Shown here: piece by piece, positions 2,935-20,740 of the stretch
How positions within the stretch are numbered: the first letter of the stretch is position 1
How the letters are laid out: every line of letters starts with the position of its first letter
Source: a virus
Strand: one strand, 5' to 3'
DNA: 23,967 bases
IMG/VR virus record: IMGVR_UViG_3300034198_006980
Coordinates: 1 to 23,967 of that record
Translations under genes and position numbers: made by a program
Notes under the pieces: generated by a model
What the model was told of the DNA's origin: nothing
Databases searched by the model: none
Seen by the model: only the letters and a program-made list of their open reading frames with translations

Positions 2935-4500
2935 ATGCTTTTGCGTCCTGATACTAGAAGTCGGTCGGAGGTTATTACTAGGCGTAAACGTAATGCTATT
3001 GAGGCTGCTAAGTCTGGACGAGAAGCGGCGTTTGGTAATCGAAAAACTCTTACAGAAGCGTTTGTTAATAATTATAATGCGGATCTTGCAATGCGAACGC
3101 CATTGCCGGGGGACACTAAATGGAATGAAGAAATAAACAAGTACACAAGTGGAGGCCCTATTGGCCGTGCTTTTGGCTCGGTTGTTGCGCCTTTAGCAAT
3201 GATTCCAAACGCGGCTATGCGAGTTATGGGACAGGCTTCGGAAGATAATTTGCCTATGGAGGCTATGAATTCGCCTCTTCGTAATGCAATGGACCCCAAA
3301 GAGCGGGCGGCTTTTGATGATACTATTACAAGTTCAATGGCTATGGGTATGGTTGGTAATGGTCCGGGAGCGGTTGGTAAGGCGGGTAAAACGGTTTTGG
3401 GCGAACTTATTGATGCTGCGGAGGCGCGAGCCACAAAAAACAGTTCTTCGGCTAAAAAGAAAGTTAGTAATACGGTTCAGTATCTACGAAACGCTGCAAA
3501 CGAGGGCCTTATTGATCCGGCGTTTCTTGCTAACATTGAACATACTGGAGCCCCATTATTTGGCAATGTCCGAGAGGCGGCTAGTATGGTAGAGGCGCTT
3601 GATGTTCCTGTCTATTCTAGTCTTGCAGATGCTCCCAAGAGAGGACGTGTTATTGCTAAAGAGGGTAAAGAGAGGGTGATTCGTGAAGGCGGGGATTTGA
3701 TGTCTTTGGCGGGTTATCTTCTTGGGGCTAAATATCCGGGTGTTACGGCTGCCACTAAAGACTTCAGCCCAGAAGTTCTTAAGTATAATGCTGAAGAGAC
3801 ATTGCGCCGAGGAGAGCACCTTTTTGGCGATATTCCTGATATGCTTCATCCGATGCGGGCTTTGTTTTATCCGCAAGTTAATGAGCAGTTCCTTAAGCCG
3901 TTGTCTGAGGCTACCGGCCATAGTGTTGATACTATTTCTCAGATTGGCGCTTCTTTGAGTCCGGGTAAAAAGGTTCCCATGGAAATGGCGCAGACAATTG
4001 AGTTTGCTAAACGCCTTTCTAATGGCGGTTGGGGTATGCCCATCGAAGAACTTACTAAGGGCTTACTCGATATGAAGTTAGGCCAAAAGGCGCAACAGGG
4101 GGCCGAGTGGATTTTAAGGCACGGATTAAATCCTCAGCACCTTGATATGAATCTCAGAGACCTTAAAAAGATTCGTGCTTATGCGTATAATAAAGCGCGG
4201 CCTTTTGAGCATATTCTTGAGGGGCTTGATATTCCTGCCTATACGCTTGATATTCATCAGCGCAGGGGCCTTGGTTTTGCTGAGGACGCTTTTCCAGAAG
4301 GACTGCGTTATGGTAGGACGGTTTCCACTATTGCTGAGGGGGCTGCTAAGGCGGCTGATTCTGTTGAACGACAGTTGGTTAGGGCGGGCATTCCTCTTGA
4401 AGAGGCTCGTAAACTGGCTAAGTTGCCTAATGTTCAACAGTCCGTTCTTTGGCATGATGTTAGAAATAGTTTAGGAGACGCTTTAGATCGTATGTTTTAG
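2935..4500 (+). CDS. Large protein of unknown function, possibly virion-internal (521 aa)
   Basis: The ATG begins two bases after the previous stop, without a strong Shine-Dalgarno site, which suggests reinitiation or coupling. The protein is soluble and alpha-helical. A glycine/methionine-rich hydrophobic stretch at about residues 125-150 might insert into or touch membrane. The C-terminal half has a block (IGASLSPGKKVPMEMAQ, then YTLDIHQRRGLGF) that resembles conserved regions of uncharacterised actinophage proteins. No enzymatic motif is convincing. Codon use differs from the neighbours: AAA, GCA and CCA are frequent here, while adjacent genes use AAG almost exclusively. That suggests later acquisition. 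It is the last late gene before the terminator, a place often taken by host-interaction or injected proteins. Confidence 0.75.
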   Translation: MLLRPDTRSRSEVITRRKRNAIEAAKSGREAAFGNRKTLTEAFVNNYNADLAMRTPLPGDTKWNEEINKYTSGGPIGRAFGSVVAPLAMIPNAAMRVMGQASEDNLPMEAMNSPLRNAMDPKERAAFDDTITSSMAMGMVGNGPGAVGKAGKTVLGELIDAAEARATKNSSSAKKKVSNTVQYLRNAANEGLIDPAFLANIEHTGAPLFGNVREAASMVEALDVPVYSSLADAPKRGRVIAKEGKERVIREGGDLMSLAGYLLGAKYPGVTAATKDFSPEVLKYNAEETLRRGEHLFGDIPDMLHPMRALFYPQVNEQFLKPLSEATGHSVDTISQIGASLSPGKKVPMEMAQTIEFAKRLSNGGWGMPIEELTKGLLDMKLGQKAQQGAEWILRHGLNPQHLDMNLRDLKKIRAYAYNKARPFEHILEGLDIPAYTLDIHQRRGLGFAEDAFPEGLRYGRTVSTIAEGAAKAADSVERQLVRAGIPLEEARKLAKLPNVQQSVLWHDVRNSLGDALDRMF

Positions 4501-4560: not shown

Positions 4561-6483
4561 CTATGCCTTAATGTCAACGACCTCGCAACCATCAGCGCTA
4601 CAGGCCAGCGTCTGAGACGAGTCAGTATTATCCTCCAACTCGTACTCTGCAAGGCCAGCCCAGTCAATACTATTAGGGCTACGCTTCACGAGGTCCTCGT
4701 ACGTGTCCTTGTCGATGCTCTCGTACGGAGCCTGTCGATACGTGTGGTCGCTCTTCGGGAGGAAGGAGATACCACTCACGTCGTCAAAGTGATCGTAGAC
4801 CCACGCTCCGACCTCCATCCACTCGTGCTCTGCTACGCTAACCGTGATGCTAGGCTTGTGCTCGCACCAGTGCTCCTGATACGCGAGCCAGAGTTCCAAC
4901 TGGTCAATGGCCGTCATGTCGTCCGTCACGATAGCGCCCTTAGGGCTCTTGATCGGGAAGTCAAAGACAACGACCTCACTATTAGTAACGTCGGGCTCGT
5001 TTGGAACGCCAGCGTCCTGTAGGAAGCGCGTGAGGGGATCGCTAATGCCTCCGCGGACGCGACGAATATAATAGGGCGAGTATCGAGCGTGAATGCCGCT
5101 AGCGCTGTCAACTAACTGAGACACGGTGCCGCTAGGCTTGACGCACGTGATGGCCGTGCTCTGATTGACGCCTACCTTCTTCGAGTACTCCGCGTTAGTC
5201 TGGACAGCCGTGCGCCTAAACTCGGGCAAGAGATTTCCCAACTGGTACGTGCCCTTACCCGCGAGCGAGCGGTTATCGAGAATGCCGGTAAGCGAAACCC
5301 CGAGGAGGCGCTCCTCTTCAGTGTTCTGCTTCCAAATCTTGCGGAGATACTTAAAGTCCGTGAGAGTGGACTGGAAAGTACCGAGAATCGTAGCGAGCCG
5401 AATCTTACGCTTAAGATCCTCGGGGGTGTCCTCTGCGCGTACGACAACCTCTGTGAGATTACAAAACTGATGCGGCCTGAGAATAATCTCGCTGCATGGG
5501 TTCGTACCAAAATTATGCTCATACTCGCGCCTACCATTCTTCGCGGCCTGCTTCTTTGAGGCCTCACGATTGAAGATACCACGCTCGCCACTCTTCGACT
5601 GGTACAGGCTAAGCCACTCTTCCATGAAGGCGTCCATGCCGGGCTTCTCCGTGTACGCTACCGAATTGTTAGCAAGCGAGCGCTGAACATTGTCTTCCCA
5701 CCACTGTCCAGACTTTGCATTACGCATACGCCCGTCTGACAGGTTTGACAGACTGATGAGGGCCGAGCGGCGAACACCACCGACCACGACCACTTCAGCA
5801 ATTTTACATACAAGATCATGACACTCCAGACTGTTGAGGCGACGACCAGCAGCATTCTCAAACATCTTGACCGTGAAGAGGAAGAGGTCCTCTAGGGGCT
5901 CTGGCCCACTAGCGCGACCACCGAACGTCTTGAGGCGACTGCCAGCGGGACGAATCTTAGAGAGGTCCCACTTCGGCTTCTGTCCTGCGTAGAGGAGGCT
6001 GATGAGTTCTCGGAGAGCGCGGGCCCAGCCAGCCTTAGAGTCCTCTACCGTAATCATCGTCGTAGAGTCCTCGAAGTGCTCGTTTACGATGGGCAACTGG
6101 TTGATGTCATCACGCTCTACGCTAAAGCCCACTCCAACGCCATTCATGAGGATGTAGAGGATCTCGTCGAAGCAGCGCGGGTGATTGATTGGCGTGTATG
6201 AGCAATTATAGCCTGCCACGTTCTCTCGCATGAGGGCGTCACCAGCGGTCATGAGGCAACGCATGCTTGGCATGACCTCTAGGCCAATGATCGCGTCGAG
6301 CAGTTCGGCCTTCAACTCTGCGGGCATCTTATAATTATTCTTTACCGCGAGGTGCTTCTCCATGAAGTCCACGTAGCGACTGACGGTCTCGGGCCAGTAC
6401 TCTCGGCGCTGCTCCGTATCGAGCCACCTAGCGTAGCGGCTTGTTGCGATAAAGGTCTGATAGTCGGTGGGCAGGTTAATCAT
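4561..6483 (-). CDS. nrdJ: Adenosylcobalamin-dependent (class II) ribonucleotide reductase
   Basis: It would reduce ribonucleotides to deoxyribonucleotides for phage DNA synthesis, with AdoCbl generating the thiyl radical, so no NrdF-type partner is needed. The active site is readable: C94 (GYNCSY), C330 with E332 (TNPCSE), and C341 (CNLTEV) exactly 11 residues later, as in the Lactobacillus monomeric reductase (C408/C419). A C-terminal redox pair C628/C633 also has that enzyme's spacing. At 640 residues it is about 100 shorter than that reference, with most of the loss between the first and second active cysteines. The ATG follows GAAGGAGA. It is the last gene of the replication operon and ends before a terminator. 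Activity depends on host cobalamin supply. Confidence 0.93.
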   Translation of the reverse strand: MINLPTDYQTFIATSRYARWLDTEQRREYWPETVSRYVDFMEKHLAVKNNYKMPAELKAELLDAIIGLEVMPSMRCLMTAGDALMRENVAGYNCSYTPINHPRCFDEILYILMNGVGVGFSVERDDINQLPIVNEHFEDSTTMITVEDSKAGWARALRELISLLYAGQKPKWDLSKIRPAGSRLKTFGGRASGPEPLEDLFLFTVKMFENAAGRRLNSLECHDLVCKIAEVVVVGGVRRSALISLSNLSDGRMRNAKSGQWWEDNVQRSLANNSVAYTEKPGMDAFMEEWLSLYQSKSGERGIFNREASKKQAAKNGRREYEHNFGTNPCSEIILRPHQFCNLTEVVVRAEDTPEDLKRKIRLATILGTFQSTLTDFKYLRKIWKQNTEEERLLGVSLTGILDNRSLAGKGTYQLGNLLPEFRRTAVQTNAEYSKKVGVNQSTAITCVKPSGTVSQLVDSASGIHARYSPYYIRRVRGGISDPLTRFLQDAGVPNEPDVTNSEVVVFDFPIKSPKGAIVTDDMTAIDQLELWLAYQEHWCEHKPSITVSVAEHEWMEVGAWVYDHFDDVSGISFLPKSDHTYRQAPYESIDKDTYEDLVKRSPNSIDWAGLAEYELEDNTDSSQTLACSADGCEVVDIKA

Positions 6484-6607: not shown

Positions 6608-6632
6608 TATATCATATTCTCTTTCGTTTGTA

Positions 6633-6714
6633 TAGGCGCGGAGGGACTCGAACCCTCACACCTCTCGGCAACGGTTTTTGAGACCGTCGTGTCTACCAAT
6701 TCCACCACGCGCCC
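6633..6714 (-). tRNA. tRNA-Leu(CAA)
   Basis: A full cloverleaf is present with acceptor GGGCGCG/CGCGCCT, D-arm with TTGGTAGA, anticodon stem ACGGT/ACCGT with loop CTCAAAA (anticodon CAA, reads UUG), the long variable arm of class II tRNAs, and a GAGGG-TTCGAGT-CCCTC T-arm. The discriminator base is A, as expected for leucine. No CCA is encoded. One base separates it from the next tRNA. UUG is common in the plus-strand late genes. Confidence 0.95.
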
Positions 6715-6715
6715 A

Positions 6716-6797
6716 TGCGAGAGGTGGGACTCGAACCCACAAGCCTTTCGGCAGCGAATTTTAAGTCCGCCGTGTATGCCAGTTCCACCACTCTCGC
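6716..6797 (-). tRNA. tRNA-Leu(UAA)
   Basis: The cloverleaf has acceptor GCGAGAG/CTCTCGC, anticodon stem GCGGA/TTCGC with loop CTTAAAA (anticodon UAA, reads UUA), a long variable arm and T-arm GTGGG-TTCGAGT-CCCAC. The discriminator is A and no CCA is encoded. It starts three bases after the phosphoesterase stop, so both tRNAs must be cut out of the operon transcript. The two tRNAs differ clearly in their stems, so they are not a recent duplication. Confidence 0.95.
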
Positions 6798-17593: not shown

Positions 17594-17630
17594 CATAGCC
17601 TCCTTGGCTAGTTGTTGGCTTGCAGTAAGC

Positions 17631-18145: not shown

Positions 18146-18177
18146 GATAGCCTCCTTGGCTCTCAGTTGATAGGCAC

Positions 18178-18437: not shown

Positions 18438-19316
18438 CTAGGCCTTGACCGGGACGCGTTCCATGATGTACTCAGCAGCGCGCTCCGCGGCATTCGCAGC
18501 CGTCACCAGCAGGCCCGGATCGTCCTGCAAGCGCGAAGCCCACGACTTCAGGTACGCCGCGCTGTGCTCCATCAGGTCCCTGTCCAGCCCAGCCGTTGCG
18601 TACAGCATCGCGGCCCCGATCTCCGCGACCAGTTCCTCCTTTGCGTACTCGTCCGATCCGAACGTGGTGGACTCGATCCGCTTCAGGCGCTTCTCGTGGC
18701 CGCTGCTGTGCACGATCTCGTGGAACAGCGTCTGGTAGTAGTGCTCCGGGCTCGTGAAGTCGCGCGGGTCCGGCATCGTGATCGCGTCGAACGCGGGCGA
18801 ATAGCAGGCCCGGTCACCGCCATGCGTCAGAGGCACGCGCTCCGTCTCCAGCCAGCCATCCGCGATGGCCTGCGCCTCGTCGTGCGGCTCGAAGTCGGCT
18901 CCGGCGAGCAGCAGCGGCCCCAGCGTGAGCCCGTCAATCTGAGCCACGTTGAAGACCGTGTAGGCCTTCGTGAGCCAGAAGCGATCCGTCACCTCGCCCG
19001 TGCCCTTGTCCTTCTTCTCCACGGGGCTGTTGAACACAATCGTGGTGCCCTTCTCGCCCTTGCGGACCTGCGCTCCGGCCTCCTTGGCCTGCTTGTACGT
19101 CATCCAGCGGGGATCGCTGTAGCCCTTGGCGTGAGCGACGTAGCCGAGATAGAGGCGGTTGTAGCCCCTGTAGTAGCGGCCCGTGATGCCGTTGTGCGGA
19201 GCGTTCGGGTCGCCGATGCCGGAGCACGCCCACGGCTTCGACCACGGCGCGATGCCCTCTGCCATCATGTCGATCAGCGACTGTGCCACCTTTGCGTACA
19301 GTTCCTTGCGGTCCAT
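18438..19316 (-). CDS. ardC: ArdC-like antirestriction metallopeptidase
   Basis: This 292-residue protein has the ArdC N-terminal single-stranded-DNA-binding domain (GIAPWSKPW at 21-29, ITGRYYRGYNRLYL, WMTYKQAKEAG, VRKGEKGTTIVF) and a C-terminal zinc peptidase-like domain with HEIVH (H199, E200, H203) and EELVAEIGAA (E232 as third ligand). ArdC proteins from plasmids and phages shield incoming DNA from restriction enzymes. A good AGGAGG precedes the ATG, and its own promoter lies at 19357-19386. Placement in the early island fits action on entry. Confidence 0.9.
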   Translation of the reverse strand: MDRKELYAKVAQSLIDMMAEGIAPWSKPWACSGIGDPNAPHNGITGRYYRGYNRLYLGYVAHAKGYSDPRWMTYKQAKEAGAQVRKGEKGTTIVFNSPVEKKDKGTGEVTDRFWLTKAYTVFNVAQIDGLTLGPLLLAGADFEPHDEAQAIADGWLETERVPLTHGGDRACYSPAFDAITMPDPRDFTSPEHYYQTLFHEIVHSSGHEKRLKRIESTTFGSDEYAKEELVAEIGAAMLYATAGLDRDLMEHSAAYLKSWASRLQDDPGLLVTAANAAERAAEYIMERVPVKA

Positions 19317-19329
19317 CCTAGTGCCTCCT

Positions 19330-19343
19330 GCGGGGTCTCCCGC
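19330..19343 (-). promoter_or_regulatory. Hairpin abutting the ardC Shine-Dalgarno site
   Basis: GCGGG and CCCGC pair around AGAC on the minus strand and end one base before AGGAGG. The position is the same as the loop hairpins before the three genes at 19412-20473, but the tRNA-like helix is missing. It may stabilise the mRNA or tune initiation. Confidence 0.5.
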
Positions 19344-19356
19344 TGTCGTTGATGAT

Positions 19357-19386
19357 AGGCTAGCAGGGGAATCGGACCCCTGTCAA
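19357..19386 (-). promoter_or_regulatory. Promoter of ardC
   Basis: TTGACA (19386-19381), an 18-base spacer and TAGCCT (19362-19357) on the minus strand. The spacer is nearly all one inverted repeat (CAGGGG and CCCCTG around a TCCGATT loop), which as RNA would resemble a T-arm and as DNA could be an operator. Confidence 0.65.
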
Positions 19387-19411
19387 GTCGCCAGACCTAG
19401 CCTGTGTCGTG

Positions 19412-19579
19412 CTACAGCCGTCCTTCGGAATCGCACCAGTCCAAGCCCGTGCTGTCGGCCACCTCGCGGTCGTTGTACCAGTTGTAGTACTCCCACGTGC
19501 AGCCCTCGTCGTCGCTGACGTAGAGGTTCCAGTAGGTCTCCCCGTCGACGACTTCTCGCTCAGTGTAGTACCCGTACAT
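19412..19579 (-). CDS. Aromatic, acidic small protein (55 aa)
   Basis: CAGGAGGCATC precedes the ATG. The product (MYGYYTEREVVDGETYWNLY and following) is rich in Tyr, Trp, Asp and Glu, with single cysteines near residues 27 and 49. It is preceded by a tRNA-like helix plus hairpin (19595-19654), as are the two genes upstream. The WNLY phrase recurs in the 62-residue protein within the polymerase locus. A small beta domain is likely; family unknown. Confidence 0.7.
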   Translation of the reverse strand: MYGYYTEREVVDGETYWNLYVSDDEGCTWEYYNWYNDREVADSTGLDWCDSEGRL

Positions 19580-19594
19580 GATGCCTCCTGTCTG

Positions 19595-19654
19595 CCGGGA
19601 TCATCCCCGGAAGCAACGCTAGGGGCTCGAACCCTAGTGCCTGCCAGTCGTCGC
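19595..19654 (-). promoter_or_regulatory. tRNA-like helix plus RATGAY hairpin, copy 1
   Basis: On the minus strand GCGACG (19654-19649) pairs with CGTTGC (19618-19613), with one G-T. An 11-base insert follows, then a T-arm with stem CTAGGG/CCCTAG and loop TTCGAGC. Two T bases link to a hairpin CCGGG-GATGAT-CCCGG (19610-19595). The Shine-Dalgarno site of the 55-residue gene follows within 10 bases. The D and anticodon arms of a tRNA are absent, so this is a tRNA mimic and not a tRNA gene. Confidence 0.75.
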
Positions 19655-19661
19655 AGCGGTG

Positions 19662-19976
19662 CTACCCCGGCACCAGCGTGGTCTCGCCAATCGTCAGAGC
19701 AATGGCGTCCTGTTGATAGCGTTCGCGGAGCACTCCCAGACTACCCCGGAGCCACTCTACACAGTCGGAAGGCACTGCCGCTACCCAAGTCGCGGACTCC
19801 TCTGCCACTCCCTCCCACTCGCCTACAGACTGCGCAGCGTCCACGTACACCGTTGCGCCGAACGTCTCCAGCACTCCCCGCACGTCATTGCGGAAGTCGT
19901 CCCACTCGTCTGCGAACATATCCCCGCCGCCCGGTACTCCGCGTCCGATGCTGATCGTAACCGTTTTTGTGTCCAT
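19662..19976 (-). CDS. Protein of unknown function (104 aa)
   Basis: AGAAGGAA lies before the ATG. The product begins MDTKTVTISIGRGVPGGG and contains EWDDFRNDVRGVLETFGATVYV and EESATWVAAV, consistent with a small alpha/beta domain. It looks like a conserved phage family, but I cannot name it, and no catalytic residues stand out. tRNA-like leader copy 2 lies directly upstream and copy 1 directly downstream. Confidence 0.75.
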   Translation of the reverse strand: MDTKTVTISIGRGVPGGGDMFADEWDDFRNDVRGVLETFGATVYVDAAQSVGEWEGVAEESATWVAAVPSDCVEWLRGSLGVLRERYQQDAIALTIGETTLVPG

Positions 19977-19994
19977 GTCATTCCTTCTGCATTG

Positions 19995-20054
19995 CCGGGG
20001 TCATTCCCGGAAAGGCAGCCGGGGACTCGAACCCCGGAGTGTTCCACTCTGCCT
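19995..20054 (-). promoter_or_regulatory. tRNA-like helix plus RATGAY hairpin, copy 2
   Basis: On the minus strand AGGCAG (20054-20049) pairs with CTGCCT (20018-20013). An 11-base insert (itself AGTG-GAA-CACT) follows, then a T-arm with stem CCGGGG/CCCCGG and loop TTCGAGT, a TT linker and hairpin CCGGG-AATGAC-CCCGG (20010-19995). It is 60 bases long like copy 1, with every element at the same distance but different stem sequences. The next gene starts 18 bases on. Confidence 0.8.
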
Positions 20055-20059
20055 AGCGT

Positions 20060-20473
20060 CTAGCCGTAGATGACCTTACCAAACAGGGCCACCTGAATCA
20101 CGCAGTCGTTGACATCCGTGCCAGCGATCCACGCGCCCTCATCGATGCTCTCGCGGCACTCCTCCTCGATGCTGCCCCAGAGGTTGTGCTTGCCCTCCGC
20201 GATCTCCACGATGGCCTTGGCGAGCCGCTCGAACGTGGCCCGGTACTTCATCTGCTCCTTGCCGTTCTCGCCGTACTCGTGCGCCTCGTGGACCGTCCAA
20301 ATGATGGCGTCGCCCTGCACCTTGCCATCGCGGGCCCAGTAGCCCGTGCCGTCCATGTCGAGCACTCCCAGCACCATTTCCCGGTTGATCCGGACCTGAC
20401 GGGTGACGTTGTAGACCCACTCGCCAGTCTCGAAGTCAACGGTGCTGGTGATGTTCTCGTGCTTAGTAACCAT
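20060..20473 (-). CDS. Protein of unknown function (137 aa)
   Basis: AGAAGGGAG precedes the ATG. The product has a beta-rich N-terminal half (STVDFETGEWVYNVTRQVRI, then VLDMDGTGYWARDGKVQGD) and a helical middle (MKYRATFERLAKAIVEIAEG), ending in a hydrophobic strand. There is no catalytic pattern or membrane segment. It is the first cistron after the promoter at 20712-20740 and has a long structured leader with the tRNA-sized copy 3. Probably an early host-takeover protein; family unknown. Confidence 0.75.
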   Translation of the reverse strand: MVTKHENITSTVDFETGEWVYNVTRQVRINREMVLGVLDMDGTGYWARDGKVQGDAIIWTVHEAHEYGENGKEQMKYRATFERLAKAIVEIAEGKHNLWGSIEEECRESIDEGAWIAGTDVNDCVIQVALFGKVIYG

Positions 20474-20493
20474 TGCCCCACTCCCTTCTCATC

Positions 20494-20583
20494 CCAGCAT
20501 CATCGCTGGAGAGCCGCTGCCCGGACTTGCACCGGGTACGCCGGGAGACTTACCCGCCTCCCTGCCAGCACTGTGCCAGCGGC
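20494..20583 (-). promoter_or_regulatory. tRNA-sized RNA element plus RATGAY-type hairpin, copy 3
   Basis: On the minus strand GCCGCTG (20583-20577) pairs perfectly with CAGCGGC (20519-20513). A 40-base middle part holds a hairpin (GGGAG/CTCCC), then a T-arm CCCGG-TGCAAGT-CCGGG. The whole is 71 bases, the length of a small tRNA, but no standard D-arm or 7-base anticodon loop is present. Hairpin CCAGC-GATGAT-GCTGG follows at 20509-20494, 20 bases before the ATG at 20473. Confidence 0.7.
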
Positions 20584-20641
20584 TGCGTTTTGCCTACTCA
20601 GTCAGTGTCTCGCCTTTCAGTCCTCTACCGGGGCCTAGCCT

Positions 20642-20711: not shown

Positions 20712-20740
20712 ATGATTCCACGAGGTCCCCGGCGTGTCAA
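20712..20740 (-). promoter_or_regulatory. Early promoter of the three-gene tRNA-like-leader operon
   Basis: TTGACA (20740-20735), a 17-base spacer and AATCAT (20717-20712) on the minus strand. The GTAAAGATTTTGTAAAG element lies ten bases upstream of the -35 (20751-20767). The predicted leader to the ATG at 20473 is about 230 bases, very long for this phage, and holds the 12-bp repeats and copy 3 of the structured element. Confidence 0.7.

Follow-up and report, generated by a model that had tools for sequence, protein, structure and literature searches.

Several known systems punctuate transcripts with structured RNA: RNase III sites punctuate the early region of phage T7, and tRNAs punctuate mitochondrial transcripts. 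The tRNA-like domain of tmRNA is built of an acceptor, a T-arm and a stemless D-loop. A hairpin 2-4 nt from the 5' end is the geometry that protects the E. coli ompA mRNA. RNase Z clamps the tRNA elbow, and a 3' CCA acts as its anti-determinant. Bacterial RNase P contacts its substrate around the T-loop, gauges the 12 bp of stacked acceptor and T-stem, and stacks on G+1/C72, and the GGU in its L15 region forms pairs with R73-C74-C75 (PMC11143913; PMC4919913). Acceptor/T-stem hairpins are efficient model substrates of this enzyme (PMC11143913).

Here we describe a small tRNA-like element that recurs in the window, by which we mean the whole 23,967-nucleotide stretch of viral DNA that was analysed (IMG/VR record IMGVR_UViG_3300034198_006980, positions 1 to 23,967). 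All copies in the window lie in one leftward gene series, on the minus strand of 19300-20600, with the following features.

20712-20740, minus strand: promoter-like TTGACA-N17-AATCAT upstream of copy A, a consensus match only
20512-20584, minus strand: copy A, in the leader of the operon's first gene, with an 8-bp acceptor (AGCCGCTG/CAGCGGCT) and T-arm CCCGG-TGCAAGT-CCGGG
20494-20509, minus strand: 3' hairpin of copy A, CCAGC-GATGAT-GCTGG; the ATG of gene 20060-20473 is 20 nt on
20013-20054, minus strand: mini-tRNA copy B, with acceptor AGGCAG/CTGCCT, linker AGTGGAACACT (11 nt) and T-arm CCGGGG-TTCGAGT-CCCCGG
19995-20010, minus strand: 3' hairpin of copy B, CCGGG-AATGAC-CCCGG, 2 nt (TT) past the acceptor; the ATG of gene 19662-19976 is 18 nt on
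19613-19654, minus strand: mini-tRNA copy C, with acceptor GCGACG/CGTTGC, linker ACTGGCAGGCA and T-arm CTAGGG-TTCGAGC-CCCTAG
19595-19610, minus strand: 3' hairpin of copy C, CCGGG-GATGAT-CCCGG, after TT; the ATG of gene 19412-19579 is 15 nt on
19357-19403, minus strand: copy D, upstream of gene 18438-19316, with acceptor AGGCTAG/CTAGCCT and T-arm CAGGGG-TCCGATT-CCCCTG
19330-19343, minus strand: hairpin GCGGG-AGAC-CCCGC, between copy D and the Shine-Dalgarno (SD) site and ATG of the anti-restriction gene 18438-19316

Copies B and C share one compact layout: a 6-bp acceptor, an 11-nt linker, and a 6-bp T-stem with a 7-nt T-loop that directly joins the 3' strand of the acceptor, followed by 2 bases and a 5-bp hairpin. 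The GG in the linker of copy B is a mimic of D-loop G18G19. The 5' end of copy B lies 5 nt past the TAG of gene 20060-20473 and that of copy C lies 7 nt past the TAG of gene 19662-19976. The original prediction, which had been made from the letters of the window, placed two copies on the minus strand at 19995-20054 and 19595-19654, and we found their coordinates, stems and loops to be exactly as claimed. Its count of three copies was too low, as the window holds four (copy D having been overlooked) and hundreds more occur elsewhere. The 5' end of copy D is 8 nt past the stop of gene 19412-19579. Its linker is 14 nt long and contains GTC-TGGC-GAC, its hairpin stands 13 nt off, compared with 0-3 nt after position 74 in the family, and it is a family member by anatomy only. 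The remaining copy, copy A, had been taken for an equal member; it is a cloverleaf-like variant whose layout differs from that of the compact copies, as ~40 nt with two extra hairpins separate its acceptor from its T-arm, and it was matched neither by our two family models (R1 and R2) nor by ARAGORN or Rfam.

A fold descriptor recovered copies B, C and D from the window, all on the coding strand, and gave 0 chance matches in 40 shuffled windows. The window copies diverge from the rest of the family at the bases after the acceptor: these are UU in B, UU in C and AU in D, and R73-C74 is absent. When the sequences were folded singly, the minimum-energy folds of B and C disrupted the acceptor stem, with z-scores of -1 to -1.7. 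Single-sequence folding is thus not decisive and the case for the B and C fold rests on comparison.

Between the copies, a consensus scan detected neither a terminator-like site nor a promoter comparable in quality to the one that precedes copy A. Farther down the gene series, some gaps contain TTGACA-N17-TAAACT-like promoters in place of mini-tRNAs. At 17597-17609 and 18149-18161 (minus strand) there is a leader, AGCCAAGGAGGCT, with a small hairpin that carries the SD in its loop and no mini-tRNA. ARAGORN and Rfam called none of the window copies and only two tRNA genes in the window, the adjacent tRNA-Leu genes (CAA and TAA) at 6632-6797, which lie near a B12-type ribonucleotide reductase gene (4561-6483). 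Our search of IMG/VR for protein relatives of gene 20060-20473 returned none. The nearest relative of the anti-restriction gene (L224, 73% identity) is preceded by what appear by eye to be divergent equivalents of the element, AGTCCCTG...CAGGGACT-TT-CCGGC-AATCCT-GCCGG; relatives near 45% identity are without such equivalents.

The first match outside this locus was provided by blastn, which aligned window positions 20018-20095 to a gene end and the adjoining intergenic gap of Streptomyces phage Endor2. The leftward arm of Endor2 contains 9 copies between genes, with a unit that reads GGGTG agTGGCACACg CCGAGG TTCGAGT CCTCGG CACCC ACT, then hairpin, SD and start. Mycobacteriophages Papyrus and Konstantine carry 14 and 7 copies, respectively, and the element is also present in mycobacteriophages Damien, Zenon and LittleE and in Microbacterium phage Musetta. 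A blastn search with one Damien copy reached 136 phage records (108 Streptomyces, 26 Mycobacterium and 2 Microbacterium), mostly in unannotated stretches. A letter pattern combining linker and T-loop matched at least 120 IMG/VR stretches and a further 47 in GTDB genomes, and most of these matches are true copies, many of them serial. Overall, IMG/VR contigs, together with prophages of Actinomycetota and Bacteroidota, contain hundreds of copies. The prophage hosts include Corynebacterium, Riemerella and Hymenobacter, with portal, terminase and Mu-like transposase genes close by, and further carriers are an FtsK-bearing element in Actinocatenispora and one Gemmatimonadota bin. Records hold up to 15 copies, and some prophages a single one. 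Among 199 genomes sampled evenly across Actinomycetota and Bacteroidota, with ~60 candidates scored per genome, matches occurred only in the two seed genomes, indicating that the element is a feature of mobile elements and that the model does not merely report tRNAs. A plasmid search gave no match, and the element is missing from R4, which is the type phage of the Endor2 group.

Two side observations concern Endor2. Its annotated tRNA-Arg, HUN44_00067 (44378-44460; L002:2642-2724), which ARAGORN predicts too, spans a copy of the mini-tRNA and overlaps the end of a gene, and is very likely not a tRNA. Endor2 gaps that are free of mini-tRNAs (L002, near 1403-1478 and 3655-3714) contain the repeats TGTGACAGTGTGAG / TTGACACACT, which are probably promoters or repressor sites.

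To judge the fold by comparison, 32 copies that excluded the window were aligned with plain MAFFT. In this set 97% of cells paired, compared with 63% after shuffling, the covariation score was 0.81 (0.17 shuffled) and 10 of the 11 pairs showed two-sided changes; a second covariation set comprised 37 copies and included the window. As a descriptor that demands pairing is biased, the test was repeated on copies picked by linker and T-loop letters alone. The acceptor was complete in 27 of 28 and then in 214 of 228 such copies, and the T-stem in 28 of 28 and then in 216 of 228, even though the 228 copies contain 27 acceptor and 43 T-stem sequences. A covariance-model search was the check suggested with the original prediction, and R2, a covariance model built without any window sequence, retrieved copy B with 39.3 bits (E 3e-8) and copy C with 35.0 bits (E 4e-7). 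Copy D scored 11.7 bits (E 0.75) with R2, on its T-arm alone, and just 20 bits with R1, whose training set included it. The claim of a repeated, cis-located acceptor/T-arm RNA with compensated stems before consecutive genes is thereby upheld: related leaders elsewhere keep the pairings, and they are not decayed tRNA genes. Judged from these alignments, the element is under selection at the RNA level.

The family element is ~42 nt long and has neither a D-stem nor an anticodon arm. Its stack is 11 bp in most copies, the tRNA stack being one pair longer. The linker measures 11 nt in 303 of 323 copies, with consensus A-C-Y-G-G-C-A-S-A-C-A, and its GG sits where D-loop G18-G19 would face T-loop U55-C56; collecting the copies involved some selection for the linker GG and the T-loop, whereas none was applied to the flank positions. 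Where the stack is 11 bp (283 copies), the flanks and first pair read G+1 (96%), A-1 (80%), R73 (100%), C74 (100%) and C75 (3%), percentages that describe the sample only, as the copies are interdependent and many come from related Streptomyces phages. Positions -1 and 73 could pair in just 4 of the 283 and are unpaired in 279, and R73-C74 is present in 204 of 205 copies of the letter-selected set. In three hosts that carry the element (Kribbella, Corynebacterium and Riemerella), the RNase P RNA has GGU at the expected place. At the family level, though in the window copies without R73-C74, the conserved positions match those that RNase P reads. The suggestion, made with the original prediction, that RNase P may cut the element is strengthened by four family-wide features: R73-C74, G+1, the unpaired -1/73 and the D-loop-like GG opposite the T-loop.

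The placement of the element is regular. In 251 of 330 copies a long open frame has its stop codon no more than 20 nt upstream, compared with 11% at random places (median 8 nt in a 334-copy set), and the next SD-start is found a median of 42 nt downstream (5-95% range 23-82 nt). The 5' end is typically 6-9 nt past the stop codon, the window gaps being 5, 7 and 8 nt. In the three annotated phages Papyrus, Konstantine and Endor2, copies mostly start 6-15 nt past the stop and mostly end 33-58 nt before the start, and 27 of the 32 gaps of at least 60 nt in their element-bearing regions hold a copy. No copy in these phages lies inside a gene, save two overlaps with gene starts in Papyrus. There, at L046:3640 and L046:24974, annotated gene starts fall inside the element; misannotation is the more likely explanation, and a later SD-preceded start codon fits better.

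On the 3' side, the stretch after C74 folds better than its shuffled versions, with a mean z of -1.49 compared with -0.27 in gene-internal control stretches, and its first paired base usually lies 0-3 nt past C74. A perfect hairpin of at least 5 bp occupies the expected place in 141 of 232 copies, against 16% when shuffled and 24% in genes. In about 40% of copies such a hairpin is missing there, and 104 different stems occur among the 3' hairpins. The RATGAY loop had been put forward as a defining part of the element. Among the 232 non-redundant copies it is present in one window copy only; a 3' hairpin is a general family feature, and this loop is local to the window. The RATGAY-hairpin pattern YCCGGGRATGAYCCCGG matched 35 IMG/VR stretches, none with a convincing adjoining mini-tRNA, and a weak descriptor match beside it in one of them (L013) looks like chance.

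From the observed RNA structure, covariation, position, spread and recognition features, we propose that these minimal tRNA mimics probably punctuate phage operons for processing by RNase P (and probably RNase Z); the cuts, the enzymes and the effect on stability are what we infer. According to this model, the 11-12 bp stack of acceptor and T-stem, the T-loop and the GG of the 11-nt linker, acting as G18-G19, would form a tRNA elbow. Host RNase P would take the element for a pre-tRNA and cut at its 5' side, 6-9 nt past the upstream stop, and a second cut, most likely by RNase Z, would fall on the 3' side beside N73. That a 3' CCA is an anti-determinant for RNase Z would explain why C75 is avoided and C74 kept. 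After the 3' cut, the downstream mRNA would begin 2-4 nt before a stem-loop, with the SD behind it, and such a 5'-terminal stem-loop is expected to resist 5'-end-dependent decay. In this way early operons of small genes would be split by the elements into separate mRNAs.

Not all copies fit a simple punctuation of genes. Ten units occupy a gene-poor stretch of IMG/VR contig L134 (2007-5060), with a small hairpin after every unit, and similar tandem copies occur in LittleE and Amycolatopsis. In the gene-poor arrays L134:2007-5060, L044:2369-2548 and 3825-4012, and L194:6879-7272, the units are ~70-100 nt apart and separated by G-rich GGCNNGGC filler. In L057, L086 and L095, a promoter-like TTGACA begins directly after R73-C74; in these cases one transcription unit finishes with the element and another starts at once. 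In a Corynebacterium prophage (L189:4801-4880), a mini-tRNA lies just behind a head gene, and in place of a leader hairpin it precedes a terminator-like hairpin with a T-run. The gene-less arrays and the copies followed by a promoter or terminator indicate that the unit is modular, and it could have a role in trans or at the 3' end of the upstream RNA.

Such arrays bear on the idea that the excised mini-tRNA is itself the product, a free ~42-nt RNA acting in trans for which an intergenic place offers cheap expression. It might occupy RNase P, RNase Z, or tRNA-modifying or CCA-adding enzymes, or serve as a decoy for tRNA-attacking defences. The gene-less arrays of up to 10 units in L134, the tandem copies in LittleE and Amycolatopsis, the strong conservation of tRNA-identity positions and the up to 15 copies per record would all suit such an RNA. 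However, three quarters of the copies lie no more than 20 nt from a stop codon, mostly with a gene following, the hairpin/SD leader would be superfluous for a role in trans, and some prophages have a single copy; we regard this explanation as rather unlikely. We hold a combined version to be doubtful to a similar degree, namely that anticodon-less mini-tRNAs form a class shared by phages of at least Actinomycetota and Bacteroidota, are excised by host tRNA enzymes and act also in trans on the tRNA-processing or surveillance machinery, the gene-less arrays being dedicated sources.

Processing would be dispensable if the uncut RNA acted on transcription, in a put-like manner, by antitermination or by shielding untranslated gaps from Rho. 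The element does fill gaps that are not shielded by coupled translation, and the arrays lie in long non-coding stretches, but such a role would by itself leave the tRNA-end features (R73-C74, G+1 and the unpaired -1/73) unexplained, and we judge it unlikely. Alternatively, an uncut tRNA mimic could act on translation of the next gene, through ribosome recruitment, reinitiation or regulated access to the SD, as its regular place between the stop codon and the SD/start might suggest. The distance to the start varies (23-82 nt, 5-95%), however, while that to the upstream stop is tighter, and arrays exist without a gene, making this role quite unlikely.

Repeats that are intergenic, in one orientation and present in many copies recall the stoperators of cluster A phages (PMC3029335), and the element could in principle be a DNA site, either a repressor-binding stoperator or a boundary sequence for gene shuffling. 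This is very improbable: compensated variation in the two stems, which make up about half of the element, is nothing that a DNA site would need, and the window contains neither the L5 stoperator consensus nor that of SAS. Finally, decayed or unusual ordinary tRNA genes can be practically dismissed, since the T-loop, elbow and acceptor features, and the one Endor2 copy that ARAGORN reads as tRNA-Arg, are outweighed by the fixed 11-nt linker, the absent anticodon arm, the up to 15 paired copies per genome and the failure of ARAGORN and Rfam to call the window copies, which do not match the RF00005 cloverleaf.

If punctuation by tRNA mimics is correct, host tRNA-maturation enzymes, which are essential and present from the first minute of infection, would cut early phage transcripts into end-protected mRNAs, and tRNA punctuation would have shrunk to a 42-nt mimic that is repeated up to about 15 times in a genome. 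Hundreds of intergenic gaps that lack annotation in well-studied actinophages would gain a function, false tRNA annotations would be corrected, and a portable part for RNA processing in bacteria would become available. Whatever the function, an Rfam entry for the element is warranted.

The original prediction knew of no described family with this layout, and our searches of Rfam 15 and the literature agree. Rfam 15 gave no family match at threshold; the nearest family was mascRNA-menRNA (RF01684), at 23.0 and 19.5 bits in the window and 26.3 bits in Endor2, with a gathering threshold of 42.5. In the open-access literature we found no description of the element, though an earlier one may exist, and the passages retrieved from the Endor2 and cluster J papers make no mention of it.

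Among repeats of phage DNA, the SAS/ESAS sequences of cluster K and the Microbacterium motifs (PMC3203893, PMC7302621) resemble the element in being repeated upstream of some small phage genes, but they are fixed sequences or inverted repeats of 13-18 bp and are not tRNA-like. The 13-bp SAS, GGGATAGGAGCCC, which is placed at start codons, had 0 matches in the window with up to 2 mismatches allowed. Cluster A stoperators are likewise repeated, intergenic and in one orientation, yet each is a constant 13-bp asymmetric DNA-binding site, whereas the stems of the element vary with compensation.

Among RNAs, mascRNA and menRNA, which are cut from MALAT1 and NEAT1 by RNase P and RNase Z, also have a tRNA-like fold within a longer transcript. 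They are eukaryotic, nuclear and single-copy, have a longer middle region and receive CCA, and no homology is claimed. Compared with the tRNA-like domain of tmRNA, the element is without a reading frame, CCA and the Ala identity pair, is 42 nt long and comes in many copies. The RNase III sites of T7 and the mitochondrial tRNAs are, like the element, intergenic structures that would yield units with protected ends. Those systems use RNase III hairpins or complete tRNAs, while the element combines an anticodon-less mini-tRNA with a leader hairpin. The element also resembles the minimal model substrates of RNase P (PMC11143913), which share its coaxial acceptor/T stack, 7-nt T-loop, G+1, unpaired N-1/N73 and R73-C74. 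By contrast with these, the element is natural and multicopy, lies between phage genes, has a D-loop-like linker and usually 11 bp, avoids C75 and is a predicted substrate. We call the element a new RNA family, and its presumed way of working a variant of the tRNA-like RNase P substrates.
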